From the NCBI RefSeq assembly GCF_039536245.1, contig NZ_BAAAYN010000023.1:254875-318874 (forward strand): DNA of 64,000 nt. The letters are read 5' to 3'. The notes under the pieces are model-generated. The model searched no databases. It was not told where the DNA came from and saw only the letters and a list, made by a program, of their open reading frames with translations. Shown in pieces: positions 1 to 56,367 of this stretch (positions within the stretch are counted from its first letter, which is position 1; every line of letters begins with the position of its first letter). Made by a program: the position numbers and the translations under genes. Origin of the DNA: Cryptosporangium minutisporangium (GTDB lineage: Bacteria; Actinomycetota; Actinomycetes; Mycobacteriales; Cryptosporangiaceae).

Positions 1-2319
1 AGCCTGATCCTGGAACGCGACGACGGGCCTCCGGTTAGCGCCCAGAACCTTCCGGCCGGCCTCAACGTCTCGGTGAGCTTCGCGGCCCGTACGGTCCTCG
101 ACCGGCCGCGACACGGGGTCACGATCCGCGCGGCCGACGGCTTCCTCGACGCGGACACCAATCCCCCTTCGGGTGCGCTGGTGCGCAATTTCATGGTCGT
201 CGCGGGAGTGATCGATCAAGTCTCCGGCAAGACATTCGAGCAGCGGATCCGGGTTCACCTCCACACCTCCGTCGCGCGCATGTGGTTGACGCCAGCGACA
301 CTCGCGATCCGCAGCGGCGCGGACGGCTCTCGGTTCACCGTCCTCGCACGGTTCGATGACGGGACCATCGGGGACGTCACGAACTGGCCGAATTTGATCT
401 GGACCGTCACCGAGCCCGGCGCCGGCACGCCGAGCCAGGCCGTACGGTTCGCCCCGGACGTCGGCCTTCAGACGCTCGCAGTGGGCCGGGAGGCACAGGT
501 CTCCGTCGCGTTCCCCGGCCCGCCACGCCGCACCGCGACCGCCACGGTGCGCACCGAACCGGCATGGTCGACGCCGACGCAGGTCACACCGCTCGCGCGC
601 CGCCCGGGCGGCGACTGGCGGCAGCGCCCGAATGTCCTGTTCCTGTCCGAGGGCTTCGAGGCCGACGAGGCGCAGGAGTTCCTCCGGGTGGTGCGGGCCG
701 TCGTCAAGAACTTGCGGACCTGGCCCTCCGCCCGGCCGTACAACCTGGTGGGGGACTTCCTCAACGTCTGGACCTGCTTCCGGCCCTCCCGGGAGGCCGG
801 GGTGAGCTTCCTCTCGGAGTGTTACACCACGCCACGCCGGAACCGGACGACGGGCGCGCGACTGGTCACCCGCCCCGCCCTGCCATTGACCGCCACGTCC
901 GAATGGTCCGTGGCGAACCTCGTGGACGCCGTGGGGCTACCCGTCCCGGTCGACGACGGCCCGGGAACGAACACGACGCTTCAGCAAAAACTCCGCGACT
1001 GGGAGCGCCTGTACCCGGGCCGGGTTCCCGCGGACGCGGTCACCCCCGAGGTGTACGCCGACTGGCGGGCGCAGGCCGGGCGCATCCTGGTCAACGAACG
1101 CGACACCGCCTTCGGCTTCGGGTACGGCGAGCGGCCCACGTTCCAGGACCCCGACACCGAGCCGTTCCACCGTCGACGCCTGCGCGAAGCGCCCTTCCTC
1201 GACTTCCTCGGCTCACTGCGGTTTGGCACCGAGCCGATCGGACCCACGTGGACGACCGGCAAGGACCGTCGGCTCGTGTGCCTCGTTCTCCGCAGCCGGT
1301 TCATCAGCGGCAACGCGTTCGGCCATCACTTCTCGATGGCGCTCGGCAGCAAGCAGGAGCTACTGGTGCGCGACGCCGCGAGCGGCGACGGCACGGACCT
1401 CGTCGTTCCCGCGGTTCCCCGCACCGTGCCGCTGACCGCGGTCGGAAGTGCGGCCCATGAGTTCTCGCACTGCGTGAACCTCGCCGACGAGTACGGGCGG
1501 GCGCCCGGCCCGCCTACGGTGACCGAGGCCGCCGAAGTTCGCCGCCATGGCAACGTGCAGCTCGCGAGCGACCTCGGGTCGACCGGGAACATCGATGCCG
1601 ACCGGATCATATGGACCTGGCACCGGATCGCGCGCTGCGGCGTGCTCGCCACCGCACCCGTTCCGCGCGGCGACAACGAGTACACGCTGCGGCTGCGGCC
1701 GGGCGACGCGTTCCCGTTCCAAGTCGACGACCTCGTTCGGCTGCGAGGACGCCCGCTGACACAGCGACCCGACCCGTCGTTCGCGCTCCGCGTGACGGCC
1801 AGGACCGGTGACGAACTGTCGGCGGAGCAGATCGAGGGGTTGCCGACCGCGCTGGATCCCGCACTGTTCCCGGCCGGGGCCGATCCGCAGCTCGACAGCA
1901 TCGTGTACGCGCCGGTCCGCGCAGCCGACGGCACCACCGAGTTGACGCTCGTGGCACCCGCGATCCAGCGACACCTGCGGACGACCCGGCGTCCGCTCTA
2001 TGCCAATCCGGTGGCCGGCTGCGGGTTCGACGCATCGGTGGTGCAGAAGCCGACGAGCTTGCCGAGCGGTCTGGATCCCCGCCGACCCCGCTTCCGGGAG
2101 CTGCTCGTCGGCCTCAGCGAGGGCGGCGCCGAGTTCAACTGTGGGGTGTACCACCCGACCGGGGCGTGTCTCATGCGCGACACCAGGTCGCTCGTCGAGA
2201 AGCTCCCTCACCTCGCCGGCTTCTGCCCGGTGTGCCGTTACCTGCTCGTCGATGTGCTCGACCCGACCCGGCACGGTGAGGTCGACGCGTACTACGCACC
2301 GGACTACCCCCGGCCATGA
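1..2319 (+). CDS. M64-like zinc metallopeptidase with Ig-like N-terminal region (5' partial)
   Basis: The frame is open from base 1, so the gene probably begins upstream; the GTG at 73 is only the first in-frame start candidate inside the window. Counting from base 1, about residues 110-180 resemble a bacterial Ig-like (Big) fold (TPATLAIRSGADGSRFTV). The segment NVLFLSEGFEADEAQEF near residue 210 is typical of IgA-peptidase M64 relatives. The catalytic motif HEFSHCVNLADEYG (first His encoded at 1456-1458) gives the HExxH zinc site, a further Asp ligand candidate and the DEY signature. The C-terminal Cys-rich end (YHPTGACLMRD, FCPVCRYLL) also matches M64. The substrate is unknown. It is first of five adjoining genes and overlaps the next by 4 bases. 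The family call is firm, the role is not. Confidence 0.85.
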   Translation, partial: SLILERDDGPPVSAQNLPAGLNVSVSFAARTVLDRPRHGVTIRAADGFLDADTNPPSGALVRNFMVVAGVIDQVSGKTFEQRIRVHLHTSVARMWLTPATLAIRSGADGSRFTVLARFDDGTIGDVTNWPNLIWTVTEPGAGTPSQAVRFAPDVGLQTLAVGREAQVSVAFPGPPRRTATATVRTEPAWSTPTQVTPLARRPGGDWRQRPNVLFLSEGFEADEAQEFLRVVRAVVKNLRTWPSARPYNLVGDFLNVWTCFRPSREAGVSFLSECYTTPRRNRTTGARLVTRPALPLTATSEWSVANLVDAVGLPVPVDDGPGTNTTLQQKLRDWERLYPGRVPADAVTPEVYADWRAQAGRILVNERDTAFGFGYGERPTFQDPDTEPFHRRRLREAPFLDFLGSLRFGTEPIGPTWTTGKDRRLVCLVLRSRFISGNAFGHHFSMALGSKQELLVRDAASGDGTDLVVPAVPRTVPLTAVGSAAHEFSHCVNLADEYGRAPGPPTVTEAAEVRRHGNVQLASDLGSTGNIDADRIIWTWHRIARCGVLATAPVPRGDNEYTLRLRPGDAFPFQVDDLVRLRGRPLTQRPDPSFALRVTARTGDELSAEQIEGLPTALDPALFPAGADPQLDSIVYAPVRAADGTTELTLVAPAIQRHLRTTRRPLYANPVAGCGFDASVVQKPTSLPSGLDPRRPRFRELLVGLSEGGAEFNCGVYHPTGACLMRDTRSLVEKLPHLAGFCPVCRYLLVDVLDPTRHGEVDAYYAPDYPRP

Positions 2320-5300
2320 GCACTCTCGCGACGATCGCTCGCCACCTCGCGCAGGCGGTGGCCCCGCTACGCCGGGCTACGACGGATCTGGCGAGTTTCC
2401 AGGCGTTCATGCTGCGCCTCGGCTGGACGGTGGACTCGCGGCCTTCCGGCTTCGCCGCACTGGCCACGCGGGTCGAACGCGTGCTGGACAGCGCGGCGAC
2501 GCTCGCCGACTCCGACGATCCGGAGCGCGTGCTCGACGTGCTGGCCGGAGTCCAGGAGCTCTACGACGCGATCGGCGAACTCACCGAGGCGCCCGCGGGC
2601 GTCGAACCGGCCGAGTTCCTCGCCGAGATCGGGGAGAGCCTGTTCGAACTCCTGCTCGTCGAGTACCTCGCCGTGGCCCTCCCCGCCCTCCACGACGGGC
2701 TGCGGCTGCTCGGGGCGATCGAGCACGAGGATCATCCGGAAACCGCGGGCCGGCCGGGTTTCGTCCGGACCCGGCTCCGTTACGACCTGCTCGCCCGGGC
2801 CCTCGACGACCCCGGCTCGGTTCCCGGGCGGCTTTACGGCTGGGGCACCGACGACGTCGACACCGACCTGCTCGCCGAGCACCTGCTGGGGTTGTCCTCG
2901 GCGCTCCGGCTGCCGGTGGTCCTCGAGCCGGTGGGGCCGGAGCAGGCGCGCGGCTATCAACCCGCTCCCGACGATGCGACGGGGGAGCCGGGCTTCTCCC
3001 TGCTGATCCCGCTGCTGGAACTGCGGGTCGACGACGTCCCCGTCAACGTATCGCTCGTACTGCTGGAGTTGCCGGCCGAAGGCTCGGCACCCGCGGGCGT
3101 GATCCTGCAACCGGCTGTGCCAGGGTCCGTCGAGGGGGAGGTGCGGGTCGACGACCGGACCACGTTCCGGGTACGCGCCGGGTCAGACGTCGAGAACACG
3201 TTCGGCATCCTCGTGCGCGGGAGCGAGGTCGCGGTGCGGTACCCGTTCCAACCCGGAACCGCCCTGCCGGCCGCCGGCTTCGGCGTCGCCGTCGAGTATC
3301 GCGCCGACGCGCCCAGCGTGCTCCTGGGCCGACCCGGCGGCACCCGCCTCGAGGCGCAGGGCGCCACCGGGACGTTCGAGGTGGACCGCGTCGGCGACGC
3401 GCTCGAGCTTCGGCTGGGCCTGGCCGTGGACCGGCTCGTGTTCACCCTCTCCGCCGGTGACCTCGACGGCTTTCTCGGCGACCTGCTGGGCAGCGCGGAG
3501 GGCCGTATCCCGATCCCCCTGGCGCTGCAGTGGTCGAGCCGCACCGGGGTGGGCTTCGTCGCCGGTGCGGGTCTCGAACGCGCGATCGCCGCCGGATATC
3601 GGCTCGGTGCGTTCACCGTCCTCGCCGGACGGGTTCGGGTGGCCGGCACCGCGGGCCCGGGGGCGGTACCGAAAGCGTTCGTTGAGGTGGGGCTGTCGGT
3701 CAGCGCCGCTGTGGGGCCGGTCCGACTCGAGGTCCGCGACCTCGGCCTGAGGCTGGAGCTGTCGTTCGCTGCGGGCAACGCCGGCCCGCTCGACGTCGGG
3801 CTCGGTGTGCGTGCGCCGGACGCGATCGGCCTAGCGCTCGAGGCCGGACCGGTCACCGGCGGCGGCGTCGTGGGCTTCGACGAGAGCACCGGGCGGTACA
3901 CAGGCGCGCTGGCACTGCAGCTGACGCGGATCAGCGTCCGGGCGATCGGACTGCTCGACACCCGGCTGCCGGGCGGTCAGCGGGGCTTCTCGCTGCTGGT
4001 CCTGCTGTCCGCCCGGTTCTCCCCGGGCATCCAGGTCGGGTTCGGCGTGACGCTGACCGGCGTCGGCGGCCTGGTCGGCGTCAACCGCCGCATCGACGTG
4101 GACGCCCTGTACGAGCGGTACGCCAGCGGCACGGCCGCCCGCATCCTGGCCGCCGAGGACCCGGTGCGCGACCTGCCCGCCGCGGTGACCGAGCTGTCCG
4201 CGATCTTCCCGCCTGCCCCGGGCGTGTTCGTGGTGGGGCCGACGCTGAGACTGCAGTGGGCGAAGATCGTCACGCTCGATGTGGGGGTGTTCCTGGAGTT
4301 CCCCGGTCCCACCCGGGTCGTGGTGCTCGGCACCGCGCGGGCCGACGTCACCAATCCCCTCGCGGCCGGTCCCCTGCTGCGGCTGCGAGCCGACTTCGTC
4401 GGTGTGCTCGACATGGTCAAAAGCACGCTGGCGTTCGACGCGGTGCTGGTCGACTCGCGCCTCCTGGAGAGCTTCCCGGTCACCGGCGGGCTGCTGGTCC
4501 GCGCGAGTTGGGGCGACGAGCCCTACGCGGTGTTCAGCGTCGGGGGGTTCCACCCGGACTTCGCGCCCGGGCCGCTGAAGGTGCCGAAGACGCTCACCCG
4601 GCTGGCGATGTCGTCCGGCTCTCCCGGCGACCGGCTGTACCTCCGATTCGAGGGCTACTTCGCGCTCACACCGAACACCGTCCAGTTCGGCGCATCGGTC
4701 GAGGTGGCGGCGAAGCTAGGGCCCATCCGGGTCCGGGGCGTCCTCGCGTTCAACGCGCTGATCCGGTTCGAGCCGTTCTTCTTCCAGATCACGTTCGAGG
4801 CCGGCATGCGCGCGGAGTGGCGCGGTCGCACGCTGCTCGGCCTGAAGGTGCGCGGCACGCTCTCCGGCCCTGGCCCGGTGCGATTCACCGGCAAGGCCTG
4901 CATCGAGGTGTTGTTCTTCGACATCTGCGCGAGCGCGAGTTTCACGCTGGGCAGTGAGGCGCCGCCCGCGGTCGGGCCGGCGCCGAACGTGCTGGACGTG
5001 GTCGCGGACGAGTTGCGGAACCCGGCCAACCTGCGCGCAGCGGCGGAAGACCGGACGGTGGTCCTGCGCCGGATGCCCAGCTCGGTGTTCCCGCCGACCG
5101 GCCTGATCTGGGAGCAGACCAGGGCACCCCTCGGCCTGCTGCTGGATCGGTTCGAGGGCACTCCGCTGGGCCGCGCGGAGATCGTCGAGGTGATCGGCGA
5201 CGCGGCATCCGGCGAGGAGCGGGACTGGTTCGCGCCGGGTGGCTTCGCGGAGCTGAGCGACGCCGAAGCACTCAACCGCCGCTCGTTCGAGCGGCTGCCG

Positions 5301-5645
5301 TCCGGCGTCCGGTTCGGCACCCAGAACGATGTGGTCTCCGCCGGCGTCCGGCACGACGTGACGACGCGCGAGTTCATCCTGCCCGCCCCGACGCCGCAGC
5401 CGCCCTCGGCGCGGACGCCGAGAGCCGCCCCGCCGTGGCTGATCGAGGCCGCCCAGGTCCGGGAGGGCCGCTCGGACGGTCGCCGATCGCAGCCCGTCCA
5501 CCGTGTGGAACCGGAGCGATGGCAGGTACTCGACCAGGACGGCGGAGTGCTGACCGAGGTCGGCGAGGCACAAGCACATCAGATCGCTCGTGCGCGCGGC
5601 TTCGTCGCGGTGGCCGCCGGCGACGTCGTCGACATCGGCCTGTGA
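2316..5645 (+). CDS. DUF6603 domain protein
   Basis: A 1109-residue protein whose ATG overlaps the peptidase stop (ATGA). About residues 515-885 read as the DUF6603 family: FDESTGRYTGALALQL, GFGVTLTGVGGLVGVNRRID, ELSAIFPPAPGVFVVGP and GGFHPDF are its recurring signatures. The region is rich in alternating hydrophobic and glycine residues, suggesting a long beta-rich structure. Residues 1-200 look helical and acidic. The C-terminus (after 900) is polar and Pro-rich. I see no signal peptide. DUF6603 has no established function. Its place between a metallopeptidase and three unknown large proteins suggests a subunit of a large assembly, which is inference only. Confidence 0.85.
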   Translation: MSTLATIARHLAQAVAPLRRATTDLASFQAFMLRLGWTVDSRPSGFAALATRVERVLDSAATLADSDDPERVLDVLAGVQELYDAIGELTEAPAGVEPAEFLAEIGESLFELLLVEYLAVALPALHDGLRLLGAIEHEDHPETAGRPGFVRTRLRYDLLARALDDPGSVPGRLYGWGTDDVDTDLLAEHLLGLSSALRLPVVLEPVGPEQARGYQPAPDDATGEPGFSLLIPLLELRVDDVPVNVSLVLLELPAEGSAPAGVILQPAVPGSVEGEVRVDDRTTFRVRAGSDVENTFGILVRGSEVAVRYPFQPGTALPAAGFGVAVEYRADAPSVLLGRPGGTRLEAQGATGTFEVDRVGDALELRLGLAVDRLVFTLSAGDLDGFLGDLLGSAEGRIPIPLALQWSSRTGVGFVAGAGLERAIAAGYRLGAFTVLAGRVRVAGTAGPGAVPKAFVEVGLSVSAAVGPVRLEVRDLGLRLELSFAAGNAGPLDVGLGVRAPDAIGLALEAGPVTGGGVVGFDESTGRYTGALALQLTRISVRAIGLLDTRLPGGQRGFSLLVLLSARFSPGIQVGFGVTLTGVGGLVGVNRRIDVDALYERYASGTAARILAAEDPVRDLPAAVTELSAIFPPAPGVFVVGPTLRLQWAKIVTLDVGVFLEFPGPTRVVVLGTARADVTNPLAAGPLLRLRADFVGVLDMVKSTLAFDAVLVDSRLLESFPVTGGLLVRASWGDEPYAVFSVGGFHPDFAPGPLKVPKTLTRLAMSSGSPGDRLYLRFEGYFALTPNTVQFGASVEVAAKLGPIRVRGVLAFNALIRFEPFFFQITFEAGMRAEWRGRTLLGLKVRGTLSGPGPVRFTGKACIEVLFFDICASASFTLGSEAPPAVGPAPNVLDVVADELRNPANLRAAAEDRTVVLRRMPSSVFPPTGLIWEQTRAPLGLLLDRFEGTPLGRAEIVEVIGDAASGEERDWFAPGGFAELSDAEALNRRSFERLPSGVRFGTQNDVVSAGVRHDVTTREFILPAPTPQPPSARTPRAAPPWLIEAAQVREGRSDGRRSQPVHRVEPERWQVLDQDGGVLTEVGEAQAHQIARARGFVAVAAGDVVDIGL

Positions 5646-5654
5646 GGGGGACGC

Positions 5655-8279
5655 ATGCCCATCGAGCTCACCTTCTTCGGTTGGCAGCGGCCGGCGATCT
5701 ACGACCTCGTCGACGGCGTCGAGGGCGCGCGCGCCCGGGTGCGACTGGCTACCCAAGCGCGCAGCCTCGCTCCAGACGGCGAAGTCAACCGCACCACCAC
5801 GGCCAGGCTCACCGTGCGGACCGCCGGGCCCGGCGACGTCCGGGCGCTTGCGCCGGACGCGATCACCGGCCGGTACCCGACGCCGGGTGCCCCGGATGCG
5901 GAAACCCCCCTCTGCCCGCACGTGGAGTTCGCCGATCCGACCCTGCCCTGGCGGTACACCCCGGCAGGCAACCCGAGAGCGGACGACCTGAGCCTGCGGC
6001 CGTGGCTGGCGCTGGTGGTCGGCACCGACGACGAGGTCGAGCTCGCCGGCGAGACGGCGACGATCGGTGCGGCGGCGCTCCGCGAGCACCCGTTGCGGCA
6101 GTCGCCCACCTGGGCGCACGTCCAGGAGCTCGACGGCCATCGGCTGGCCCGGCTGCTGTGCCGCCGTCTCCTGCAACCGCGGGTGACCTACCACGCGCTG
6201 CTGGTGCCCACGTTCGTCGTCGGTGGCGACGGCGAGCTCGCCAACGCCTGGGCGGCCTCTCCGCCGGGTCCGGTGACACTGCCGGTCTACGCCCGGTGGC
6301 GATTCCGGACGGGGCCCGGCGGTGACTTCCGGACGCTGGCCGATGCGCTGGAACCCGGTGCGGCGGATGCGTCGACCGGCCTGACCACCGTGCGTTATCC
6401 GCGGCTGCCGGACCAGCCGGTGCTGAGCGTCGGCGGGGCCCTCACCGCGGTCGATCCGCCGGCCGACGTCCCACCGCAGGCGATCCGCGACGACGTGGAC
6501 CTCCTCCGCGGGCGACCCACCGACGGAATCGGCCGGCGCATCCTCGGGCTGCCGACGTACGGCGGGGCCTGGAAGGACCAGCCGGACGAGACGGCGTGGG
6601 GCGGCCCGCTCAACACCGACCCACGCCATCGCGGGATCGCCGGTCTCGGCTCGGAGTTGGGTGTCGTGCTCCAGGAGGAACTGGCCGAGCGGGTCGCTCA
6701 GCAGGCCGGCGCCCAGGACGCCGCGGAGGAACGGATCCGCCATCTGACGCTCGGGCTCGCCGCGTCCGAAGCGCTCTGGCGCCGCCGCCTGCCGACCGAC
6801 CCCGCGCGCCGTGTCTGGCTGTTCGGACCGGCGCTGCGGCGGGTGGTGACCGCCGCCGGACCGGTGGCCGATCGGGCGACCGCCGATGACCGGCCGCTGC
6901 CGCGCGGCTGGTTCTCCCCGGCAGCGCGGCGGACCCTGCGGCGCGGACCGGCGCGCGTCGCCCTCGCGCACCCGGCCGCGGCGGATCCGGCACCGCTGAA
7001 CCAGGTCGCGAACCGCCCGCCGACGCGGCCATCGTTCGCCGACCCGGGCCTCCCGTCGTTCGGTCGCCTCGGCGCCGCCGAGTTCGACCGCGAGCGCGCC
7101 GAGGCCGCCGAGAGCCAACGCGTGGACGCCGGCGCCGTGGCCCACGCGTTCGGCAGCCTCGACATGAGCCGCTTCCGCAGTCACACCGACGATCTCCTCG
7201 AGGTCCGGGACAGCCTGCAGCTGCGACGGTCGCGCCGGGAACTCCCCTGGGTGCGGCTCACGCTCCTGCTGACCGCGCTCGCCGACGGCGAGGACGATCC
7301 CGGCTTCGACGCGGCGACCGTGGGGGACCTGCTGCCGGGTCTCGCCGCGGACCTCGACGAGCAGAACGACGACGCGGACGTGCTGCCCGCGTTGCTGCGC
7401 GAGCTGGGTGACGACGAAGACCCGCCACCGCTCTTCCGGCCCGTGGACCTCGGCGGGCTCGGCACCGAGCTGGCGGCCGCGTTCGACCCGACCGGCATCG
7501 CCGCCCCGGCACGACGCCGGGTGCTGTCCACGCTCACCGGTCTGGATCCAGCCCGGCCGCTCGAACCGCCGGAGCAGTGCCCCCGCCTGGACCTCCCGGT
7601 CTGGCGTCGCCTGGCCGATCGGGCTCCGGACTGGCTGCTGCCGGGCATCGGTCAGCTCGGCGAGGACGTCGTCCTCGCGCTCGGCACCAATCCCGCCTTC
7701 GTCGACGCGTTCCTGATCGGCCTGAACACCCGCCTGCTGGAGGAACTGCGCTGGCGCAACCTGCGGATCGCCACCGGCTGCACCCCGATCCGCGCGTTCT
7801 GGCTCCGCACCGACGAGTCCACCGGTGACCGCCTCGACGACATCGCCGGCATCGCCGACTGGGCCGACGACAGCTCGCTCGGCCACATCCTGCCCCGCCC
7901 ACCCGGCGCAACCGAGAGCGACCTCGTGCTGGTCTTCCGCACGCGACTCTTCCAGCGCTACCCGCACACGCTGCTGTACCTCGTCTCCGACAGCTCGGGC
8001 TTCACCGAACCGCCGGACGACGACGCACCGCGAACGCTCCCGACCTTCCAGGGACGCATCGGCGAGGACGTCACGTTCTTCGGCTTCGTCGGGGTGCGTC
8101 CGCAGGCGGTGACCGGCTTGTGGATCGCGCTGGAGGAACCGCCGTCCGGGTTCCGGTTCCGCAACGACCAGCCCGCGACCGGCGTCGACGACGGCGCACA
8201 GTTCGCCCACGTCGCGTTCGACGACCCCACTCGGGTGCTGATCCGCGGCGACCACCTCGTACCCGGAGCATCGTCGTGA
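5655..8279 (+). CDS. large protein of unknown function, third gene of the five-gene operon
   Basis: An 874-residue protein starting at an ATG with GAGGGGG just upstream, 9 bases after the previous stop. I do not recognise a family. Visible landmarks are an N-terminal beta-like section, a Trp-rich stretch (LPWRYTPAGNPRADDLSLRPW) near residue 110, a long Arg- and Ala-rich helical middle (residues 340-560), and a C-terminal domain ending in FFGFVGVRPQAVTGLWIALEEPP near residue 800. There is no signal peptide or membrane segment. Codon usage is strongly GC-biased like its neighbours, so it is certainly expressed coding sequence. Start and stop coupling to both neighbours indicates production with the DUF6603 protein. 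No catalytic motif was seen, so a structural role is as likely as an enzymatic one. Confidence 0.85.
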   Translation: MPIELTFFGWQRPAIYDLVDGVEGARARVRLATQARSLAPDGEVNRTTTARLTVRTAGPGDVRALAPDAITGRYPTPGAPDAETPLCPHVEFADPTLPWRYTPAGNPRADDLSLRPWLALVVGTDDEVELAGETATIGAAALREHPLRQSPTWAHVQELDGHRLARLLCRRLLQPRVTYHALLVPTFVVGGDGELANAWAASPPGPVTLPVYARWRFRTGPGGDFRTLADALEPGAADASTGLTTVRYPRLPDQPVLSVGGALTAVDPPADVPPQAIRDDVDLLRGRPTDGIGRRILGLPTYGGAWKDQPDETAWGGPLNTDPRHRGIAGLGSELGVVLQEELAERVAQQAGAQDAAEERIRHLTLGLAASEALWRRRLPTDPARRVWLFGPALRRVVTAAGPVADRATADDRPLPRGWFSPAARRTLRRGPARVALAHPAAADPAPLNQVANRPPTRPSFADPGLPSFGRLGAAEFDRERAEAAESQRVDAGAVAHAFGSLDMSRFRSHTDDLLEVRDSLQLRRSRRELPWVRLTLLLTALADGEDDPGFDAATVGDLLPGLAADLDEQNDDADVLPALLRELGDDEDPPPLFRPVDLGGLGTELAAAFDPTGIAAPARRRVLSTLTGLDPARPLEPPEQCPRLDLPVWRRLADRAPDWLLPGIGQLGEDVVLALGTNPAFVDAFLIGLNTRLLEELRWRNLRIATGCTPIRAFWLRTDESTGDRLDDIAGIADWADDSSLGHILPRPPGATESDLVLVFRTRLFQRYPHTLLYLVSDSSGFTEPPDDDAPRTLPTFQGRIGEDVTFFGFVGVRPQAVTGLWIALEEPPSGFRFRNDQPATGVDDGAQFAHVAFDDPTRVLIRGDHLVPGASS

Positions 8280-11200
8280 CCACCACCGCCGTGCTGCTAC
8301 CGCTGCGCCTGGAAACCCGGTTTCTCGGTACCACGCTGCGCGTGCTGGTCGTGCCCGATGAGCCCTGGTTCGACCGGCACGATCCGATCCCGACCGCGGC
8401 CGAACTGGACGACCTGGAGCGGTTCTACGCCGCGGCCGGGGGCGACCTCGACCAGCCGCCAGCGCAGGCCCCGTGGCGACTGTTCGCCGGCCGTCACGGA
8501 CCGGGCCGAGCCGCCTGGCTGGTCCGCACGTTCCCGCGGGCGCCCGGCGGTGCCCGCGGCCTTCTCGACCGACCGTCGGAGCTGCGGGAGGAGTTCTGGT
8601 TCACCGCGCTCCCCGACTTCCCCTCCGAACTCCAGGTCTGGATCGCCCGCGGGGACTCCGAACCGGCGCTCGCCGCGACCCTGCCGATCGACGCCGCCCG
8701 GCTCCGGCTCGACCCGCCGGATCCCAACCCACCCGCGCCCGAGCCGTCCGAGCCGGACGGTCCCGAAACCGAGGTGGACCCGGAGCAGCGGTGGTGGGAG
8801 TCGTGGGACGAGGCGAAGCGGGCCGGACTCGGCGTCGAGATCGACCTGGGTGAGCGCAGCGACGACATCGAGGCGCTGTACGTGGTGGGACTGGCCGACA
8901 CGACCGCGGCGGCGTTGTTCGCCCGGCACCGCGACGCCGGTCAGCTCGGCCTGCTGGCGCCGGGCACGCCGACCAACTCGGTCGACGGCGTGCCCACCGC
9001 CGACCTCGGCCGCGACCCGCTGCCCTGGCTGCGGTTGCTGCGACGGTCGGCCGACGAGACCGAGCGAATCGCTGGTTTCGCGCTCACCGGCGACCGCGAG
9101 CTGCTCGGCGCGCTGCCTGGCGACAACCGGCCCTACCAGTTCTGGGCCCGGCAGGTGCTGACCGCGCTGTGGCCGGCGTTGGCCGGACACACTCTCACCC
9201 ACGTGCTGGACGTGCTGAACTCCGCGCAGACCCCACGCTGGGTTGCCGACAACGTCGACCCGATCGGACCGTTTCCGGCGCTGCGGGTCGGGAGCCAGCC
9301 CTACGGGCTGCTGCCCGCGACTTCCCTGCGCGACTGGGTACCCGCCGGCGACGACCCGCCGTTCGAGGCGGTGCTGGGCCGGCGGCTGAGTACCCTGCGG
9401 GCACGGTGGGCGGCGGCGGCCGTGCGAGGCGGGCGCGGTGCGGTAGACGGTGCCGACACCGATCAGCTACTCAGCCTCCTCGGCCAGCCCCCGGCGTCGT
9501 CGGCGTACGCGCTTCGACCGATGCACGCGATGGAGCTGTGGCTGCTCGGTCTGCTGGCCACCGGGCACGGACAGATCCCCGGGCCGACGGACCGGGCGAT
9601 GGGCTGGCGGCGGCTGGTAGAGGCATGGCACGACCGGTATCCGCTCGCCGCGGAGTTCGCGCTGCGTCCACGGCGGTACTACGGCGCCAGGGGCTGGGCG
9701 CACCGGACGCGACTCCCGCTGGTCACGCCCCGCGGTCTGCCCGGCGGCGTCGGCGTCGCGACTGTGCTGCGGCGCCTGGTCGACCTCGCCAGGCAAGCGC
9801 CGACGACGTTTGCCACCACCGCGGCGGTCGAGGCGTCCGTCGCCGCACCGCTCGGCAGCCTGCTGCTTCGGCTGGCCGTCCGCTCCCTGCAGGTCGCCCT
9901 CGGCGACCTCGGCCGGCAGAAGCTCGACATCCCGCCGGAGAAGCACCAGGCCGCGGCGGTGCCCGCCGAGACCCCTCAACTGCTCTCGGACTGGATCCGG
10001 GCAGTCGCCCCGGAGGACCTCGACGCCGACACCGACGCCGCCCGCGACCTGCGCCGTCTCACCGAAGCCCTGATCCGCCTCAGCGGCGACGCGCTGGGGC
10101 ACCTGGAGCAGCTGGTCCCGGCTGCCGTCGACTGCACCAGCCACCGCATCGACCCGTGGGTGGTCGGGCTGGCCCGGGCCCGCTTACGGCGACTTCCCGA
10201 GCAGCCCCCGCTGCTGGGTGCCTACGGCTGGGTGGACGGACCACGTCCGGGGCAGCCCGGGCCCACGGCGGGCGGGCTGCTGCACGCTCCCTCGTACCCG
10301 CAGGCGCTTACCGCTGCGCTCATCCGCGACCGGATGATCAACGACCCCGAGCCCGACCGGTGGCACCTGGACATCACCTCCGCCCGCGCACGACGGGCCG
10401 CGCGGCTCGCCGATGAGGTCCGCGGCGGGGCGCACCCCGCCGAGGCGCTCGGCCGGGAGGCCGAACGAGTGGTGGACGATCCGCTGCGGATCCGGGCACT
10501 GCGTCAGCGGTATCCACTGCGCGGTGAGCACGCGGGCCGCCGTACCTGCGACGGTCTGCGAGTGCTCGCCGATCTCGACGACCTCGAATTCCCTGACCCC
10601 GTACGACACGAGCTGCTTCTGTTGCGCGAGTCCGTCGACGTCTACGCCGATCTGCTCGTCGCCGAGGCCGTTCAGCACGTGGTCGACGGTCGCACCGGTC
10701 AGGCCGGAGCGGCACTGGACGCCGCCGCCGGACTGGCCCGGCCCCCGACGTTCGACGTGCTGCGCACCCGGCGGGAAGGACGCCCCGCCGAGTCCACGTG
10801 CCTGATCGCCATACCCGACGCACCGTTCCTGGCGCTGCCCGACGATCCGGCCACCGTCCACCCGGCTCTGCTGGCCGATCCGGCCACCGCCGCGTTCCTC
10901 GCCGCCCGCACCGGCACGGCCCGCCAGTGGCGGTGGCGACTCGACGTCGCGGGCACAGCGCGGGAGATCACGCTCGCCGATCTCGACCTGGAACCCGCGG
11001 ACGCCTTGGCGCTGCCGCTGGGTGTGCTGGAACGACTGGTCCGGCAGGCCGTACCCGATCCCGGCGCCACGATCATCGACCGGGACGGCAGCGTCCGGTA
11101 CGAGCATGCCGCCCGACTGGCCGCACTCCTCGGCCGCTCACCCGCCACCGCGGCGGACGCCGCCGAGGGCTCCCCCCGGCCGGACCCGGACGGGACTGCC

Positions 11201-12082
11201 GCAGCCGACTTGCGGAGCCGCCTGGCCGACTTGCGCACCGCCGCGCAGGTACTCGCCGAACGGCTGCGTACCGACGCCGGCGCCCTGCCGCTCGCCGCTC
11301 GGTGGGGCATCGCTCCCGAGCCCGATTCCGGCGCGGCGGACGCCCTCGCCGATCGGCGGGATCGCGCTCGTGAGCACTTCCTCGACCGGCTCGCCGCGGC
11401 CCCCGACGACACCGCCTCCGCGAGCCTCGACCACCTCGCGCTGGCCGCCGCACTCGCCGCACTCACCTCATCGACCGGGCAGATCGCGGTGCTGGGCCGG
11501 CTGCGCCGGGACGCGTTCGCTCCGCTGCAACGCAGCGAGTCCGGCGCCACCGGGCTGGACGCGACATGGCTGCCGTTCGTTGCGCCGGTGCGGCCGCCGC
11601 TCGCGCGGCTCGAAGCGTTCCAACTCGGGGCCGGCGTCGTAGCCGGACTCGGACCGCCGCTGACCGGCTGGACCAACCGGCCGACCGATCCGTGGCAGAC
11701 CGATCCCGAGGACATGCGGCGCCTGGTGGCCGCGTACACCCCGCACGACCTGGACCCGACCGCGGGGCCACCGGGCCGGACGATGGCCGCCGGCCTGCTC
11801 GACCGATTCTCCGAGACGATCCCCGACGCCGAGCACACGACCACGGCCGCGTTCGGATTCGACGCGCCGGGCGCCCGCGCGCCGCAAGCCATTCTGCTCG
11901 CGGTTCCGCCGGATCCCGACCGTGATCTCGATCCGGCGACCCTCATCCGGATCGTCGCCGAGACCCGCGAGCTGACGCGGGCGCGCATGGCCACGCCGGA
12001 CGACCTCGACGACGTCACTGGCCTGGTGCCGCTCCCGCTGCTCCCTGCGAGCGGCGACACCGCCGTCCGACTGGAGCGATAA
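8276..12082 (+). CDS. very large protein of unknown function, fourth gene of the operon
   Basis: I place the start at the GTG of 8276, which overlaps the preceding stop (GTGA), giving 1268 residues; the frame is open further upstream but that part is antisense-like noise. The protein opens with TTTAVLLPLRLETRF. Near residue 330 it has PFPALRVGSQPYGLLPAT, which looks like its best conserved block. The remainder is a long Ala/Arg/Leu-rich helical body with Pro-rich acidic linkers (about residues 145-170). No signal peptide, membrane helix or catalytic motif is visible. I know no named family for it. Size and coupling suggest a scaffold partner of the adjoining gene products. Confidence 0.85.
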   Translation: MTTTAVLLPLRLETRFLGTTLRVLVVPDEPWFDRHDPIPTAAELDDLERFYAAAGGDLDQPPAQAPWRLFAGRHGPGRAAWLVRTFPRAPGGARGLLDRPSELREEFWFTALPDFPSELQVWIARGDSEPALAATLPIDAARLRLDPPDPNPPAPEPSEPDGPETEVDPEQRWWESWDEAKRAGLGVEIDLGERSDDIEALYVVGLADTTAAALFARHRDAGQLGLLAPGTPTNSVDGVPTADLGRDPLPWLRLLRRSADETERIAGFALTGDRELLGALPGDNRPYQFWARQVLTALWPALAGHTLTHVLDVLNSAQTPRWVADNVDPIGPFPALRVGSQPYGLLPATSLRDWVPAGDDPPFEAVLGRRLSTLRARWAAAAVRGGRGAVDGADTDQLLSLLGQPPASSAYALRPMHAMELWLLGLLATGHGQIPGPTDRAMGWRRLVEAWHDRYPLAAEFALRPRRYYGARGWAHRTRLPLVTPRGLPGGVGVATVLRRLVDLARQAPTTFATTAAVEASVAAPLGSLLLRLAVRSLQVALGDLGRQKLDIPPEKHQAAAVPAETPQLLSDWIRAVAPEDLDADTDAARDLRRLTEALIRLSGDALGHLEQLVPAAVDCTSHRIDPWVVGLARARLRRLPEQPPLLGAYGWVDGPRPGQPGPTAGGLLHAPSYPQALTAALIRDRMINDPEPDRWHLDITSARARRAARLADEVRGGAHPAEALGREAERVVDDPLRIRALRQRYPLRGEHAGRRTCDGLRVLADLDDLEFPDPVRHELLLLRESVDVYADLLVAEAVQHVVDGRTGQAGAALDAAAGLARPPTFDVLRTRREGRPAESTCLIAIPDAPFLALPDDPATVHPALLADPATAAFLAARTGTARQWRWRLDVAGTAREITLADLDLEPADALALPLGVLERLVRQAVPDPGATIIDRDGSVRYEHAARLAALLGRSPATAADAAEGSPRPDPDGTAAADLRSRLADLRTAAQVLAERLRTDAGALPLAARWGIAPEPDSGAADALADRRDRAREHFLDRLAAAPDDTASASLDHLALAAALAALTSSTGQIAVLGRLRRDAFAPLQRSESGATGLDATWLPFVAPVRPPLARLEAFQLGAGVVAGLGPPLTGWTNRPTDPWQTDPEDMRRLVAAYTPHDLDPTAGPPGRTMAAGLLDRFSETIPDAEHTTTAAFGFDAPGARAPQAILLAVPPDPDRDLDPATLIRIVAETRELTRARMATPDDLDDVTGLVPLPLLPASGDTAVRLER

Positions 12083-13620
12083 TGGCCTACCGCTACGACT
12101 CGGTCCTCCGGCTGGAGCCGGCCCACCCGTACTCCGACCTGACGCGGGGGCTGCGCGCCGAGATCGCCGACCCCGTGTGGTTCCTCGGTCGGCAGTGGCA
12201 GCTGGGCGAGCACCGCGGCGAGGACGCCGCCTCACCGGTCCGCGTCGAATACCGGGCCGAACGATCGCCGATCCGGCCGTTCGACGCCGACCCGCGCCTC
12301 GATCCGCGATCGGTTCCGACCGAGGCCATAGTCGAGTCCGAACCGGACGAGTTCTGGACCGTCGGGCGCCGCGTCACGGTGGGGCGCGGCGTCGAGCGTG
12401 CCGCCGCCGACGCCGGGCGGCCGCTCCCCGACGACGACGCGCTGCGCCTCGCCGACCTCGCACCCCCGTACGACCTGCTCAACGGCGCCTTCGACGGCCG
12501 GGTTCTGTTCCGGGACCGCGCCCAACTCGAGCTGCCCGAGGCGTGGTTCCCCGAAAGCCCGCCCCGACCGGCGCCACGGGATTTGTGGAACTCCGCCGAA
12601 CTCGCCTACGACGCCGATTTCACCGCCGGGCCAGCCACGCTCGCCCTGCGTCGGCACGACGGCGGCACCGTCGATTGGTGGTCCGTCGACGCCACGGCGC
12701 CCGTGCCCGATCCCGCGCGTCCCCCAGACGTCACGTCCGTCGTCGCCACCCGGATCCAGTACCCCGGCGCGCCCAACCCGCGCTGGTGGCAGATCGAGGA
12801 GTCCGCGGCCGACCTCGGCGCCTACGACACTGACCGCAGCCACTTCGGCACGCTCCTGCTAGTCGAACTGATTAGCTCCCACTCCGACGACTGGTACACC
12901 TTCCCGATCGTCGCACCGGTGGGCAGCGTCCTGACGCTGCACGAGGTCACCGTGATCGACTCGACCGGCGAACCGTGGGTCGTCCGGCCTCCCGACGACG
13001 GCTGGACGATGTTCACCGTCACCGGTCTGGATCCCCGCTCGCTCGTGGTGTGGTCCACGGTGACCACGGCGCTGACCGGTTCCGTCCTCGACCAAGTCGA
13101 CCTCGGCGTCGACGAGGACGCCAACCTGGTGTGGGCGGTCGAACGCCGGGTCGGTGGGCGTGACCTCCTCACTCCGCAGGGCGCCGAGGGAACCGGCGGC
13201 ACAGACGCCGCCGGCACCGGCGCCGATGCGACCGCGGCGCACCATTACACCTACGTCCCCGGTGCCGACGTCCCTGCGCACTGGCATCCGTACCTAGTCG
13301 ACGAGGAGCGTCCGACCTCCCGGCTCCTCGTCCAGGCGCGTCTGGCCGACTTGGCCGGCGTCGCCGACCGCCCCGGCCGACGCCCGCCGCCCATGCCCGC
13401 ACCGATCACCACGCTGCTCCGGCCGACGCCAGGCGGCGGGGAGCGGATCCACAGCCTCCAGCCCTCCGCCGTCCCGGTCGACGGGCTGCAGATCGAGCGG
13501 CGCTACCAACTCGGCCGCAGAGTCGACGGAGAACCCGTGCTGTGGCTGCAGCGCAGGCGCCTACCACTGGCTGCACCACCGACCATGCGCCTCCGTTTCG
13601 ACGCCCTCGAGGAGGAGTGA
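12082..13620 (+). CDS. protein of unknown function, last gene of the five-gene operon
   Basis: A 512-residue protein whose ATG shares one base with the previous stop (TAATG). It begins MAYRYDSVLRLEPAHPYSDL and has a striking block at residues 30-55, DPVWFLGRQWQLGEHRGEDA, that looks like a family hallmark. A Trp-rich stretch (PNPRWWQIEESAADLGAY, near residue 235) and an aromatic, beta-like middle follow. There is no signal sequence. The family is unknown to me. The operon ends here: the next gene is convergent and 85 bases away. Being last in a strictly coupled operon, it is probably made with the DUF6603 protein and the two larger unknown proteins. Confidence 0.85.
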   Translation: MAYRYDSVLRLEPAHPYSDLTRGLRAEIADPVWFLGRQWQLGEHRGEDAASPVRVEYRAERSPIRPFDADPRLDPRSVPTEAIVESEPDEFWTVGRRVTVGRGVERAAADAGRPLPDDDALRLADLAPPYDLLNGAFDGRVLFRDRAQLELPEAWFPESPPRPAPRDLWNSAELAYDADFTAGPATLALRRHDGGTVDWWSVDATAPVPDPARPPDVTSVVATRIQYPGAPNPRWWQIEESAADLGAYDTDRSHFGTLLLVELISSHSDDWYTFPIVAPVGSVLTLHEVTVIDSTGEPWVVRPPDDGWTMFTVTGLDPRSLVVWSTVTTALTGSVLDQVDLGVDEDANLVWAVERRVGGRDLLTPQGAEGTGGTDAAGTGADATAAHHYTYVPGADVPAHWHPYLVDEERPTSRLLVQARLADLAGVADRPGRRPPPMPAPITTLLRPTPGGGERIHSLQPSAVPVDGLQIERRYQLGRRVDGEPVLWLQRRRLPLAAPPTMRLRFDALEEE

Positions 13621-18407: not shown

Positions 18408-19598
18408 ATGGCCAAGAGCCAGTTCGTCCGTAACAAGCCGCACGTCAACATCGGGACGATGGGGCACGTCGACCACGGCAAGACGACCCTGACCGCCGCC
18501 ATCACGAAGGTGCTCGCCGACCGCGACCCGGCCGCCAACCGGTACGTCGCGTTCGAGGGCATCGACAAGGCGCCGGAGGAGGCTGCCCGCGGGATCACCA
18601 TCACCATCGCGCACGTCGAGTACGAGACGCCGACGCGCCACTACGCGCACGTGGACATGCCCGGCCACGCCGACTACGTGAAGAACATGATCACGGGGGC
18701 GGCGCAGGTGGACGGCGCCATTCTCGTCGTGTCGGCGCAGGACGGGTCGATGCCGCAGACCCGCGAGCACGTGCTGCTCGCCCGGCGGGTCGGCGTGCCG
18801 TACCTGGTGGTGGCGCTCAACAAGAGCGACACCGTCGACGACCCCGAGCTGCTCGACCTGGTCGAACTGGAGGTCCGCGAGCTGCTGTCGACGTACGGAT
18901 TCCCCGGTGACGAGGTGCCGGTGGTTCCGGTCAGCGCGCTCAAGGCGCTGGACGGCGACCCGCGCTGGGTGCAGTCCATAGCCGACCTGCTCGACGCGGT
19001 CGACGACTACGTACCGGTGCCGCCGCGCGAACTCGGCGAGCCGTTCCTGATGCCGATCGAGAATGTCTTGTCGATCAGCGGCCGGGGCACCGTCGTCACC
19101 GGCAAGGTCGAGCGCGGCACGCTGCGCGTCGGCGACCCGGTCGAGGTCGTCGGCCTCGGGCCGACGGTGGCGAGCGTCGCCACGGGCCTGGAGATGTTCG
19201 GCAAGTCCCTCGACGCGGCACAGGCCGGCGACAACGCCGCGGTCCTGCTCCGTGGGGTCAAGCGCGAGCAGGTGCAGCGTGGCCAGGTGGTCGCGGTGCC
19301 CGGCAGCGTGACGCCGCACCAGCGGTTCCGGGCTACGCTGTACGCACTGACCTACGCCGAGGGCGGCCGCCACACGCCGTTCGAGGCCAACTACCGGCCC
19401 CAGTTCTACTTCCACACGACCGACGTGTCGGGCGGGCTGGAGCTGGACGGGGTGGAGATCGTGATGCCGGGGGACACTCTCGACTCGGTCGTGGTGGACC
19501 TGAGCAAGCCGGTCGCGCTCGAGGTCGGCTTGGGCTTCGCCGTCCGTGAGGGCAATCGCACGGTCGCCGCCGGCACGGTCACCGAACTGCTGGACTGA
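18408..19598 (+). CDS. tuf: Divergent orphan elongation factor Tu (tuf3-like), cysteine-free
   Basis: A 396-residue EF-Tu, full length. GTPase motifs are intact: GHVDHGKT (19-26), DMPGH (83-87) and NKSD (138-141), followed by the domain 2 and 3 signatures [13 protein letters not shown] and [18 protein letters not shown]. Compared with the usual DCPGH, NKCD and STCTG, the three conserved cysteine positions are Met, Ser and Ala, and the protein contains no cysteine. The start is the ATG after GTGAGG. It is not beside rpsL, rpsG or fusA, so it is a stand-alone copy like the third tuf gene of some Streptomyces. It probably delivers aminoacyl-tRNA under special conditions; oxidative or thiol stress is my inference from the missing cysteines. 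A strong hairpin terminator follows. Confidence 0.93.
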
Positions 19599-53577: not shown

Positions 53578-56367
53578 TCACTCGTCGAGCTGTTGGAGCA
53601 GCTCGCCGATCTCCGCACGTAAACCGTGGTCCTCATCGGAGAGCAGCTCGAGGGCCGCGCTCAACGCGGTCCGGGCCTCCGCGGTTCGGCCGAGCTCGGC
53701 AAGGAGCCGGCCGTGCAGGGTGTGGGCCGCCGTGACTTGCAGCGTGGCGTCGAGCGCGACGAACAGCTCGGCCGACGTCGCGGCGTGGGTCACGGCGTCG
53801 TCGAGGCGGTTCAGCCGAGCCAGGACACGTGCGGTGTCGTAGTGCATCATGCCGAGCTCCCACGTCTTCGCGGGCGTCTCCTCGGCGATCGTGTCGCCGA
53901 GCTTCGCCGCAGCCTCCAGCGCGGCGAGGCTCCGCTCGGGGCGGCCGGCCCAGTGCCAGGACAGCCCGGCGCCGCGACGGTTGTGGAGGTGCCGGAGCAC
54001 GTCGTCGATCTCGGCGAACGCATCGGCGGCCTGCTCGTAGCGGATCGCGGCGGCTTCGTCGCGGTCGAGGCTGTCGAGAACATCGGCGGCGACGCCACGC
54101 GCCCGGCCCAGCGCGCCGTGCTCGCCGCGCACCGCGTACTCCTCGGCGGTCTCGTCCAGCAGTAGCAGCGCCTGTTCGTGGTAGCGGAGGTCGATGTAGC
54201 AGTCGGCCAGCAGGGACTTCGCGTCGAGCAACGTGTCGGCGTCCTCGTCGGCGGTCAGCGCGCCGATCGCCTCCTCGAGCGCGTCCACCGCCTCGTCCGG
54301 CCGCTCTCCGGCCAGGCACGCACGGGCCAAGTCGACCCGAACATGGCCCGCGGCGCGGGGAATGGCCGCGGCGTCGAGCGCGGTGACGGCGTCGGCGAAC
54401 GCCGCGGCGGCGTCGGCCGGACGCTCGAGCTGGAACGCCACCCGTCCCCGCAGCCCGAGGGCTTCCGCGCGCTCGACCGGGTCGGTGAGGCGCGCTGCCT
54501 CGCCGAGGAGCGCGTACGCGTCCTCCAGCTCGCCGCCGACCGCACGGAGCCGGCCGGCGAGCAGCTGCGCGTCGTGCAGGGCCTCGGCCGGCGCCAGCGG
54601 TGTGAACAGCGCGATCGCCCGGTCGGCGTGCTCCGCCGCCTCGGCGTAGTGGGCCGGTCCGAACTCGGTGAGCAGCTGAGCGAGCAGTTGCTCCGCGTCG
54701 GCTCGACGGGCGGGCGCGTCCGCGTCGGACGCCGAGTCAGCGATCGCCAGCGCGCGGCGAGCGGCTTCGACCGCTTCCTCCCGGCGACCGACGATCCAAC
54801 GGGCCTGCGAGAGCCGGAGGGCGGACGCGCACCGCTGCCCGGCGCTTCCCTCCGTGTCCACCAGCGCGGCCTCAATCTCGACGGCCGGTAAGCCCTCGTC
54901 CGCCCGGTCGGTCAGGCACAGCAGCAGCCCTCGCCGCTGCCGTGCCGCGGCCGCGCGGACGTCGTCGTGGCCGGCGAAGACGTCCGCGGCCTCCGACCAG
55001 AACCGGTCGGCAGCGGCCACGTCGCCGACCTGAGCCCGCTCGATGCCCGCGGCGATCAGGCGCCTTCCCCGCAGCACTCCGGTCGGCTCCGGGCAGAGCT
55101 CGTCGAAGCGCGCCCAAGCCGCCGCGATCGCGACGTCGTTGTCGAGGTATCCCTGCAGATCCGCCCAGTCGGCCAGTCCCTCGGGCGTCGCGGGCAGCTC
55201 GGGCGTCGGCCCGTCGGCCGCGCTCCCGACGGTCCCACCGGCCGGATCGCCTGACGACGCCGCCCGTCGGCGCGCGACCCCCGACAGCGGCAACGTGTCG
55301 GCCAGCGGTTCCGCTGCCAGCCGCTCGCGCGTCCGGATCCCCACCGCGGGCGTCCCGTTCCGCGCGTCGAACCGTGCGGCCAGCGCCAACGCTCGCGCAG
55401 CGAGCTCTTCCCCGAGCACGGCAGCCGAATGTTCCTCGCCGCCCCACCGAATGACGAGCTCGTCGTACCCGGCCGATGCGGTCTTCCGCAGCGCATCCGC
55501 CGCGGACGCGCTGAACACCAGGTCGGCCATTGGCGTCGCCGGGTCGTCCAGCCAACCGACGTGCCGCTGGATCAGCTCCACGGCCCGCGGCAGGTTGCCG
55601 GTCCGCGCGCAGAACGCCACGTGCTCGCCGATCAGCGCGAGGTCGCTGCGGGAGGTCTGCAGCTGCCGGTAGGCCCGTCGATGGGCGTCCGCCGCCTCGG
55701 TGTGCCTGCCGGTACGGACGAACGGCTCGAGCAACGCGGTCAGGATCGCCGCCGGCTGCTCGACGCAGGTCTGCGATCCGCTCAGCACCGGCGCCGCCAC
55801 CGTCATCGCGTCCTCGTACCGCCCGGCGACCATCAGGTGCCGCGCCTTCTGCGTGGGCTCGCACCCGATGCAGTCCGAGAACTCGCCGCGCGGCGCGGCG
55901 CACCACAGCCGGTACTGCTCCGCCGCGTCGGCCTCGTCCCCGAGGTGATCGGCCAGCTCGGTGCGGAGCATGTACACCGGGTTCAACGACTGACCAGCCA
56001 ACCGGTACCGACGCTCCATGTCGTCCAGCACCGCACGGGTCCGGTCGAGCGGAACCTCCGGAAACCCCGACAGCCCGCTGACCACGTACTTGAACGCCCA
56101 CATCAGCGAGTGGTCGTAGTGCGGGTCGGCGTCGCCACGGTCGTAGACCGACAGGCACCAGGCGAACGGCACGAACACCTTCGCTTTCTCACCGGCGTAG
56201 TTGTACGCCTTGATCGCGAGGATGCGTGCGGCGTACTGCAGATCGGCGAGCTGCTGGGCGTCCGCGTGCCGGATGACCTCTTCGACGGCGGCCACCTGCG
56301 CGCGCCCGTAGGGCATCTGCCAGGCCGTGCCGAGCAGGTGGCGCAGATCGTGCGGGGTGGGGTTCAT
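53578..56367 (-). CDS. Large TPR-repeat protein, partner of Hsp90
   Basis: A 929-residue, all-helical protein; ATG 56367 overlaps the Hsp90 stop by 4 bases. It consists of successive helix pairs with the TPR pattern (small residues at G/A positions), for example the region ADAEQLLAQLLTEFGPAHYAEAAEHADRAIALF and the C-terminal unit with HTLHGRLLAELGRTAEARTALSAALELL. The N-terminal 250 residues are less regular and hold clustered Cys (DCIGCEP near residue 175). It is cytosolic. The tight coupling with Hsp90 suggests a complex, comparable in outline to eukaryotic Hsp90 co-chaperones. What it recruits is unknown. Confidence 0.83.
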   Translation of the reverse strand: MNPTPHDLRHLLGTAWQMPYGRAQVAAVEEVIRHADAQQLADLQYAARILAIKAYNYAGEKAKVFVPFAWCLSVYDRGDADPHYDHSLMWAFKYVVSGLSGFPEVPLDRTRAVLDDMERRYRLAGQSLNPVYMLRTELADHLGDEADAAEQYRLWCAAPRGEFSDCIGCEPTQKARHLMVAGRYEDAMTVAAPVLSGSQTCVEQPAAILTALLEPFVRTGRHTEAADAHRRAYRQLQTSRSDLALIGEHVAFCARTGNLPRAVELIQRHVGWLDDPATPMADLVFSASAADALRKTASAGYDELVIRWGGEEHSAAVLGEELAARALALAARFDARNGTPAVGIRTRERLAAEPLADTLPLSGVARRRAASSGDPAGGTVGSAADGPTPELPATPEGLADWADLQGYLDNDVAIAAAWARFDELCPEPTGVLRGRRLIAAGIERAQVGDVAAADRFWSEAADVFAGHDDVRAAAARQRRGLLLCLTDRADEGLPAVEIEAALVDTEGSAGQRCASALRLSQARWIVGRREEAVEAARRALAIADSASDADAPARRADAEQLLAQLLTEFGPAHYAEAAEHADRAIALFTPLAPAEALHDAQLLAGRLRAVGGELEDAYALLGEAARLTDPVERAEALGLRGRVAFQLERPADAAAAFADAVTALDAAAIPRAAGHVRVDLARACLAGERPDEAVDALEEAIGALTADEDADTLLDAKSLLADCYIDLRYHEQALLLLDETAEEYAVRGEHGALGRARGVAADVLDSLDRDEAAAIRYEQAADAFAEIDDVLRHLHNRRGAGLSWHWAGRPERSLAALEAAAKLGDTIAEETPAKTWELGMMHYDTARVLARLNRLDDAVTHAATSAELFVALDATLQVTAAHTLHGRLLAELGRTAEARTALSAALELLSDEDHGLRAEIGELLQQLDE

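Follow-up and report, generated by a model that had tools for sequence, protein, structure and literature searches.

Tc (ABC) toxins consist of a few large proteins together with a variable enzyme, effector modules of the type VI secretion system (T6SS) and of contractile injection systems (CIS) comprise exchangeable enzymatic cargo without signal peptides, giant β-barrel translocons such as LptD and SprA of the type IX secretion system (T9SS), like porins, are built as long antiparallel amphipathic β-meanders, and the characterised M64 metallopeptidases are secreted enzymes carrying signal peptides (PMC12402451). Here, we analyse a five-gene cassette of Cryptosporangium minutisporangium that shares single features with each of these systems. 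It is located at the start of a 64,000-nucleotide stretch of DNA, in the following the window (G000:C23:254875-318874, G000 denoting this genome), and encodes an M64-like metallopeptidase, a DUF6603 protein and three large proteins of undescribed families, G3, G4 and G5. A description of the four genes following the peptidase gene was not found in the libraries or the open-access literature searched, and we regard the cassette as undescribed. The best-supported reading, to which we assign a probability of roughly 0.5, is that its products form one complex that carries an enzyme out of the cytoplasm.

The genes are encoded on one strand and follow each other with junctions of -4, +9, -4 and -1 bases according to the open reading frame (ORF) calls, exactly as described in an earlier sequence-only reading of this DNA, which reported overlaps of 4, 4 and 1 bases and one 9-base gap. 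Its expectation that the products are made in fixed proportion is an overstatement: the overlaps point to co-translation, yet overlap alone does not set a ratio. A consensus scan yielded no convincing promoter or terminator. The window begins inside gene 1, whose likely GTG start lies 84 bases upstream, at about position 254791 of G000:C23. That only the M64 and DUF6603 proteins are recognisable was borne out by library searches. Gene 2 is a clear member of PF20248 (377 bits at a Pfam cut-off of 27), an entry without function whose description lacks the four-gene context, and DUF6603 was not found in 5.39 million open-access papers; gene 1 scores 30.5 bits against PF09471 (cut-off 26), covering residues 206-286 only; for G3, G4 and G5 we obtained zero family matches in Pfam, NCBIfam, PHROGs and PADLOC.

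DUF6603 is found twice in this genome. The second cassette copy is located about 100 kb away on the opposite strand (G000:C23:145089-160726; L005:5090 to L006:726) and shows the order PhoD-type phosphatase, DUF6603, G3, G4 and G5, likewise with short overlaps or gaps. The core proteins of both copies share only about 28-35% identity each, and the PhoD-type phosphatase replaces the peptidase, from which it follows that the four genes are the unit and the first gene is exchangeable. By eye, the second G4 seemed to end in an IPT-like tail, but Pfam gave no match for it and we do not claim it.

Conservation of the four core genes extends far beyond chance. Among 396 actinobacterial genomes, DUF6603 is present in 12 and G3 in 10, all ten of them within these 12 (Fisher p 3e-18), and G5 in another set of 10, eight of which fall among the DUF6603 genomes. 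A genome-wide scan with a G3 profile gave 233 relatives, from which 80 loci were returned and annotated with hidden Markov models (HMMs) built from the cassette families. These loci span eleven named bacterial phyla and a haloarchaeon, the haloarchaeal carriers being Haladaptatus and a haloarchaeal plasmid. The order DUF6603-G3-G4-G5 is kept in all 64 loci with enough flank; simple gene calling places the four genes consecutively in 57 of these, and the remaining 7 hold all four in order, with a split G4 (L060), an extra ORF (L109) or genes that calling had missed and a six-frame search recovered. In most loci, DUF6603 and G3 overlap by 4 bases. Co-occurrence in other genomes had been proposed as a check by the sequence-only reading and is confirmed by this strict order, and the sequence blocks it had singled out as conserved hallmarks do align with relatives across phyla. 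The cassette is also mobile, as 13 plasmid records carry it, haloarchaeal and Streptomyces plasmids with recombinases close by among them. We rejected a phage origin: viral contigs gave no relative, and the sole match in a phage collection, L113 (MT835531.1), is an unverified contig recorded as 'Bacteriophage sp.' from human faeces. The rest of its genes look actinobacterial, and it is probably a bacterial contig with the wrong label.

In contrast to the core, the first gene is swapped between loci. In 54 of 65 loci, DUF6603 is preceded on the same strand by a gene whose end lies within 70 bases of it, and in 27 of these the two overlap; these linked genes comprise at least seven unrelated identified types by Pfam, i.e. 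PhoD, M64, trypsin-like, subtilase, phospholipase D, galactose oxidase and tyrosinase, the trypsin-like labels resting in each case on weak Pfam matches together with a GDSG motif; further first genes match no recognised type. Looser or divergent cases include a divergently oriented LodA-type oxidase (L027), a ferritin-like protein separated by a gap of about 240 bases, a metallo-β-lactamase fold and a WD40 protein. Mapped onto a quick maximum-likelihood DUF6603 tree, the 13 first-gene types of 60 rows require at least 25 changes (shuffled mean 39, lowest 32), and sister rows often differ, in pairs such as trypsin-like/tyrosinase, M64/tyrosinase and M64/galactose oxidase. Restricted to 55 shared loci, quick trees give 20 changes for DUF6603 compared to 25, 26 and 25 for G3, G4 and G5, a tighter tracking that would fit DUF6603 being the protein that touches the cargo. 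The sequence-only reading had assigned the M64 protein the role of a processing protease, which we reject: a phosphatase occupies this slot in the second copy, and elsewhere it holds proteases of unrelated families, oxidases or a phospholipase. The M64 protein thus has the appearance of a cargo rather than of a maturation enzyme.

Two further observations concern the cargo genes. The subtilase at L083:3855-6569 and the trypsin-like cargos of L044, L055 and L064 have a common C-terminal helical domain, 'AWHR..GP', which is possibly a docking module. At L081:1186-6584, four tandem trypsin-like genes precede one DUF6603 cassette, and one carrier may therefore serve several cargos.

Table 1. Genes of the cassette in the window (positions in the window; aa, amino acids).
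Feature	Position	Strand	Basis
First gene, putative cargo slot: M64-like metallopeptidase, 800 aa in full	1..2319	+	PF09471 30.5 bits; HEFSHCVNLADEY; CLMR...FCPVC
Core 1: DUF6603 protein, 1109 aa	2316..5645	+	PF20248 E 1.7e-112; AlphaFold2 model
Core 2 (G3): undescribed family, 874 aa	5655..8279	+	conserved in 55-sequence alignment
Core 3 (G4): undescribed family, 1268 aa, GTG start, RVGSQPYGLLP	8276..12082	+	46-sequence alignment
Core 4 (G5): undescribed family, 512 aa, DPVWFLGRQWQLGEHRGEDA, part FN3-like in model	12082..13620	+	56-sequence alignment

Gene 1 resembles the M64 family members ThomasA and BF3526 in its Pfam match, in an HExxH...DE zinc site and in a Cys cluster resembling that of the secondary zinc site in ThomasA. 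The general catalytic motif of the family is HEXXHXXXGXXD (PMC12402451), from which gene 1 departs as HEFSHCVNLADEY places the D one residue closer. The cassette M64 proteins show HEXXHXXXLXDEY with the same spacing wherever the motif is found, and because of this zinc motif, one residue shorter than the general one, we call gene 1 M64-like. Its sequence also suggests the secondary zinc site, an E following the D and three Cys, in DEY and CLMR...FCPVC. Unlike the family members described, it has no signal peptide and is tied to the cassette in every case examined.

Structure prediction points to an unusual architecture for the DUF6603 protein. In the AlphaFold2 model (mean pLDDT 81.6, pTM 0.58), a helical N-terminal part of about residues 1-200 is followed by about 32 long antiparallel strands between residues 220 and 880, nearly all with one hydrophobic face (mean Kyte-Doolittle (KD) value 2.2, polar fraction 0.07) and one polar face. 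The best fold matches are SlpA, the S-layer deinoxanthin complex, LptD, SprA, porins, VDAC, TOM40 and ApoB; as superposition on the barrels exceeds a root-mean-square deviation (rmsd) of 10 Å, these matches indicate a kind of architecture, neither kinship nor a closed barrel. The protein is thus predicted to be a giant amphipathic β-meander having outer-membrane barrels as its nearest counterparts. It differs from SprA, LptD and porins in lacking a signal peptide, in occurring in monoderm bacteria and archaea and in superposing poorly. The G5 model (mean pLDDT 76.5) gives a best VIA Z of 4.7 over 62 residues, to FN3 domains; Foldseek returned no PDB match below E 1 and a viral structure library nothing convincing (best E 0.04, prob 0.03). 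Profile searches of the PDB found no credible solved-structure relatives of the core families by sequence, with no match for G3 and one for G5 at E 0.19; matches of the DUF6603 helical part and of G4 to designed helical bundles look like artefacts or chance and were rejected. Compared by profile, G3, G4 and G5 are unrelated to each other, save for a weak 66-column match between G5 and G4, and the libraries searched hold no known relatives of the three. The structure and sequence searches therefore assign none of the proteins to separate well-known enzymes, an outcome by which the sequence-only reading had proposed to test its idea of a multi-subunit particle. Together with the co-occurrence this makes a complex likely; that the proteins are physically associated is our inference.

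All five proteins lack a hydrophobic segment at the N-terminus, in agreement with the earlier claim that signal peptides are missing. The same applies across the loci: hydrophobic N-termini are found in 0 of 85 G3, 0 of 81 G4, 0 of 71 G5 and 3 of 83 DUF6603 proteins and are absent from 53 of 54 linked first genes. Some lineages have PA14, lamin-tail, FG-GAP or peptidoglycan-binding domains added to core or cargo proteins. Missing signals and extracellular-type domains together suggest, as far as sequence can tell, an action outside the cytoplasm reached via a non-Sec route.

This supports a model according to which DUF6603, G3, G4 and G5, translated from one transcript, would assemble into a large cytoplasmic complex that takes in a single folded enzyme without a signal peptide, the product of the first gene, and carries it out of the cytoplasm to be released, displayed on the surface or delivered to a target. 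The enzyme would be exchangeable, M64-like here, PhoD-type in the second copy and a protease, oxidase or phospholipase elsewhere, DUF6603 most likely providing the housing or conduit and G3-G5 most likely the shell, stalk or binding parts. We favour a cargo and its carrier because the core order is constant, the first gene is swapped and the junctions are close, because first genes are signal-less although the M64 enzymes studied are secreted with signal peptides, because extracellular-type domains occur on core and cargo proteins in some lineages, and because the DUF6603 model resembles large amphipathic β-barrels. Several points weigh against it. The cassette with its order, spread and mobility, the cargo swaps and the lack of signal peptides are established, but complex formation, location, transport and division of labour are inferred; the DUF6603 superposition on barrels is poor and barrel closure not established; the gained domains are limited to a few lineages; and many carriers of the cassette are organisms that lack an outer membrane. 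The tightly linked genes of some Streptomyces loci are located downstream (a WD40 protein), the upstream enzyme being distant or absent, and the tracking of the cargo with DUF6603 may reflect mere chromosomal neighbourhood of both genes.

A stronger version of the cargo-and-carrier model, tentative and in our view rather unlikely, is a new class of export or delivery machine in which one polypeptide forms a giant β-barrel-like housing or conduit for a folded, interchangeable enzyme, working in archaea and in bacteria regardless of whether they have an outer membrane. If the model is true, it describes a widespread cargo system without described counterpart, missed so far since three of its core families have no Pfam, NCBIfam, PHROGs or PADLOC model and the fourth is a DUF absent from the papers searched. 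It would also explain how signal-less PhoD, M64, subtilase, tyrosinase and similar enzymes reach the outside in monoderms, diderms and archaea. A single operon, natural cargo swaps and two paralogous copies within one genome offer a genetic handle, and carriers that take unrelated enzymes are of practical interest for protein display.

Among the alternatives, we consider it unlikely that the cassette serves CIS as an accessory or effector module, its complex being loaded into or onto the CIS particle. In Winogradskya humida, a CIS cluster with two sheath genes, a gp19 tube, baseplate J and Tail_P2_I is located directly upstream of the cassette on the same strand (L128, G396:C93:50001-70000, and L035), and the genome of the window has a CIS on another contig (L129, G000:C24:142000-161999) comprising a sheath with a C-terminal domain and tube-like and baseplate-like genes. 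Sheath matches are commoner in actinobacterial genomes with DUF6603 (5 of 12) than in those without it (32 of 384; Fisher p 0.003), a comparison made without correction for genome size. In a wider set, 19 of 33 other cassette genomes have such a match, and 13 of these exceed the curated cut-off. However, 14 of these 33 have no sheath match at all, and the linkage is seen at one locus only, as blastp of two CIS clusters against all called flanking proteins found no CIS relatives near the others. The cassette therefore cannot need a CIS, and we reject dependence on CIS as a requirement. Sheath, tube and baseplate genes are absent from the cassette and from the surroundings of this copy, and no PF05638 match, indicative of the Hcp tube of T6SS, exists in the genome of the window. 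The likeness to T6SS and CIS effector modules lies in the exchangeable signal-less enzymes and in a T6SS-effector-like domain among the cargos, whereas the cassette proteins are not sheath, tube, baseplate or spike proteins and most loci have no such genes nearby.

The lack of signal peptides in all five proteins, an enzyme as cargo and a large, conserved carrier would also suit a compartment or scaffold in the cytoplasm, comparable in role to an encapsulin or microcompartment, which encloses the enzyme and never leaves the cell. We judge this improbable: the Pfam hits include no encapsulin or microcompartment family and no HK97-type or bacterial microcompartment (BMC) shell domain in any core protein, most cargo families are extracellular in type, and a location outside agrees better with the PA14, lamin-tail, FG-GAP and peptidoglycan-binding domains on core or cargo proteins.

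A multi-subunit toxin following Tc-like logic, with DUF6603 inserting into the target membrane or enclosing the enzyme and G3-G5 binding the target, appears quite improbable. The predicted giant amphipathic β-protein would be consistent with it, and two cargos (L049, L084) weakly match the C-terminal part of the T6SS effector BTH_I2691 family (33-38 bits at a cut-off of 150), a family of pore-forming toxins (PMC12909789). Yet no TcA, TcB or Rhs family was found in Pfam at E up to 1, an immunity gene was not recognised in the cassette, and most cargos are general hydrolases or oxidases. Unlike in Tc toxins, the variable part is a separate first gene and no C-terminal region. Neither Rhs/Tc shells nor encapsulins turned up among the fold and family hits, though either may still be present. 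Highly unlikely, too, is a particle associated with lipid or a complex for lipid transfer, in which the hydrophobic DUF6603 face binds lipid as apolipoprotein B does and the enzyme acts on lipids or surface molecules. In its favour, ApoB100 gives the longest fold alignment (454 residues, Z 11.8) and one strand face is strongly hydrophobic; against it, the rmsd of that alignment, 36.6, is very poor and the cargos are mostly other than lipid enzymes.

Elsewhere in the window, a complete and apparently solitary EF-Tu gene is located at 18408-19598, with no other translation genes recognised adjacent, and at 53578-58103 on the minus strand an Hsp90-like ATPase gene overlaps by 4 bases the gene of a 929-aa protein of no obvious family. 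Divergent DUF6603 loci (L018/L019, L021, L031) have distant or unrelated partners in place of G3 and G4, L021 combining two Hcp-like genes with a DUF6603 protein of 3233 aa.

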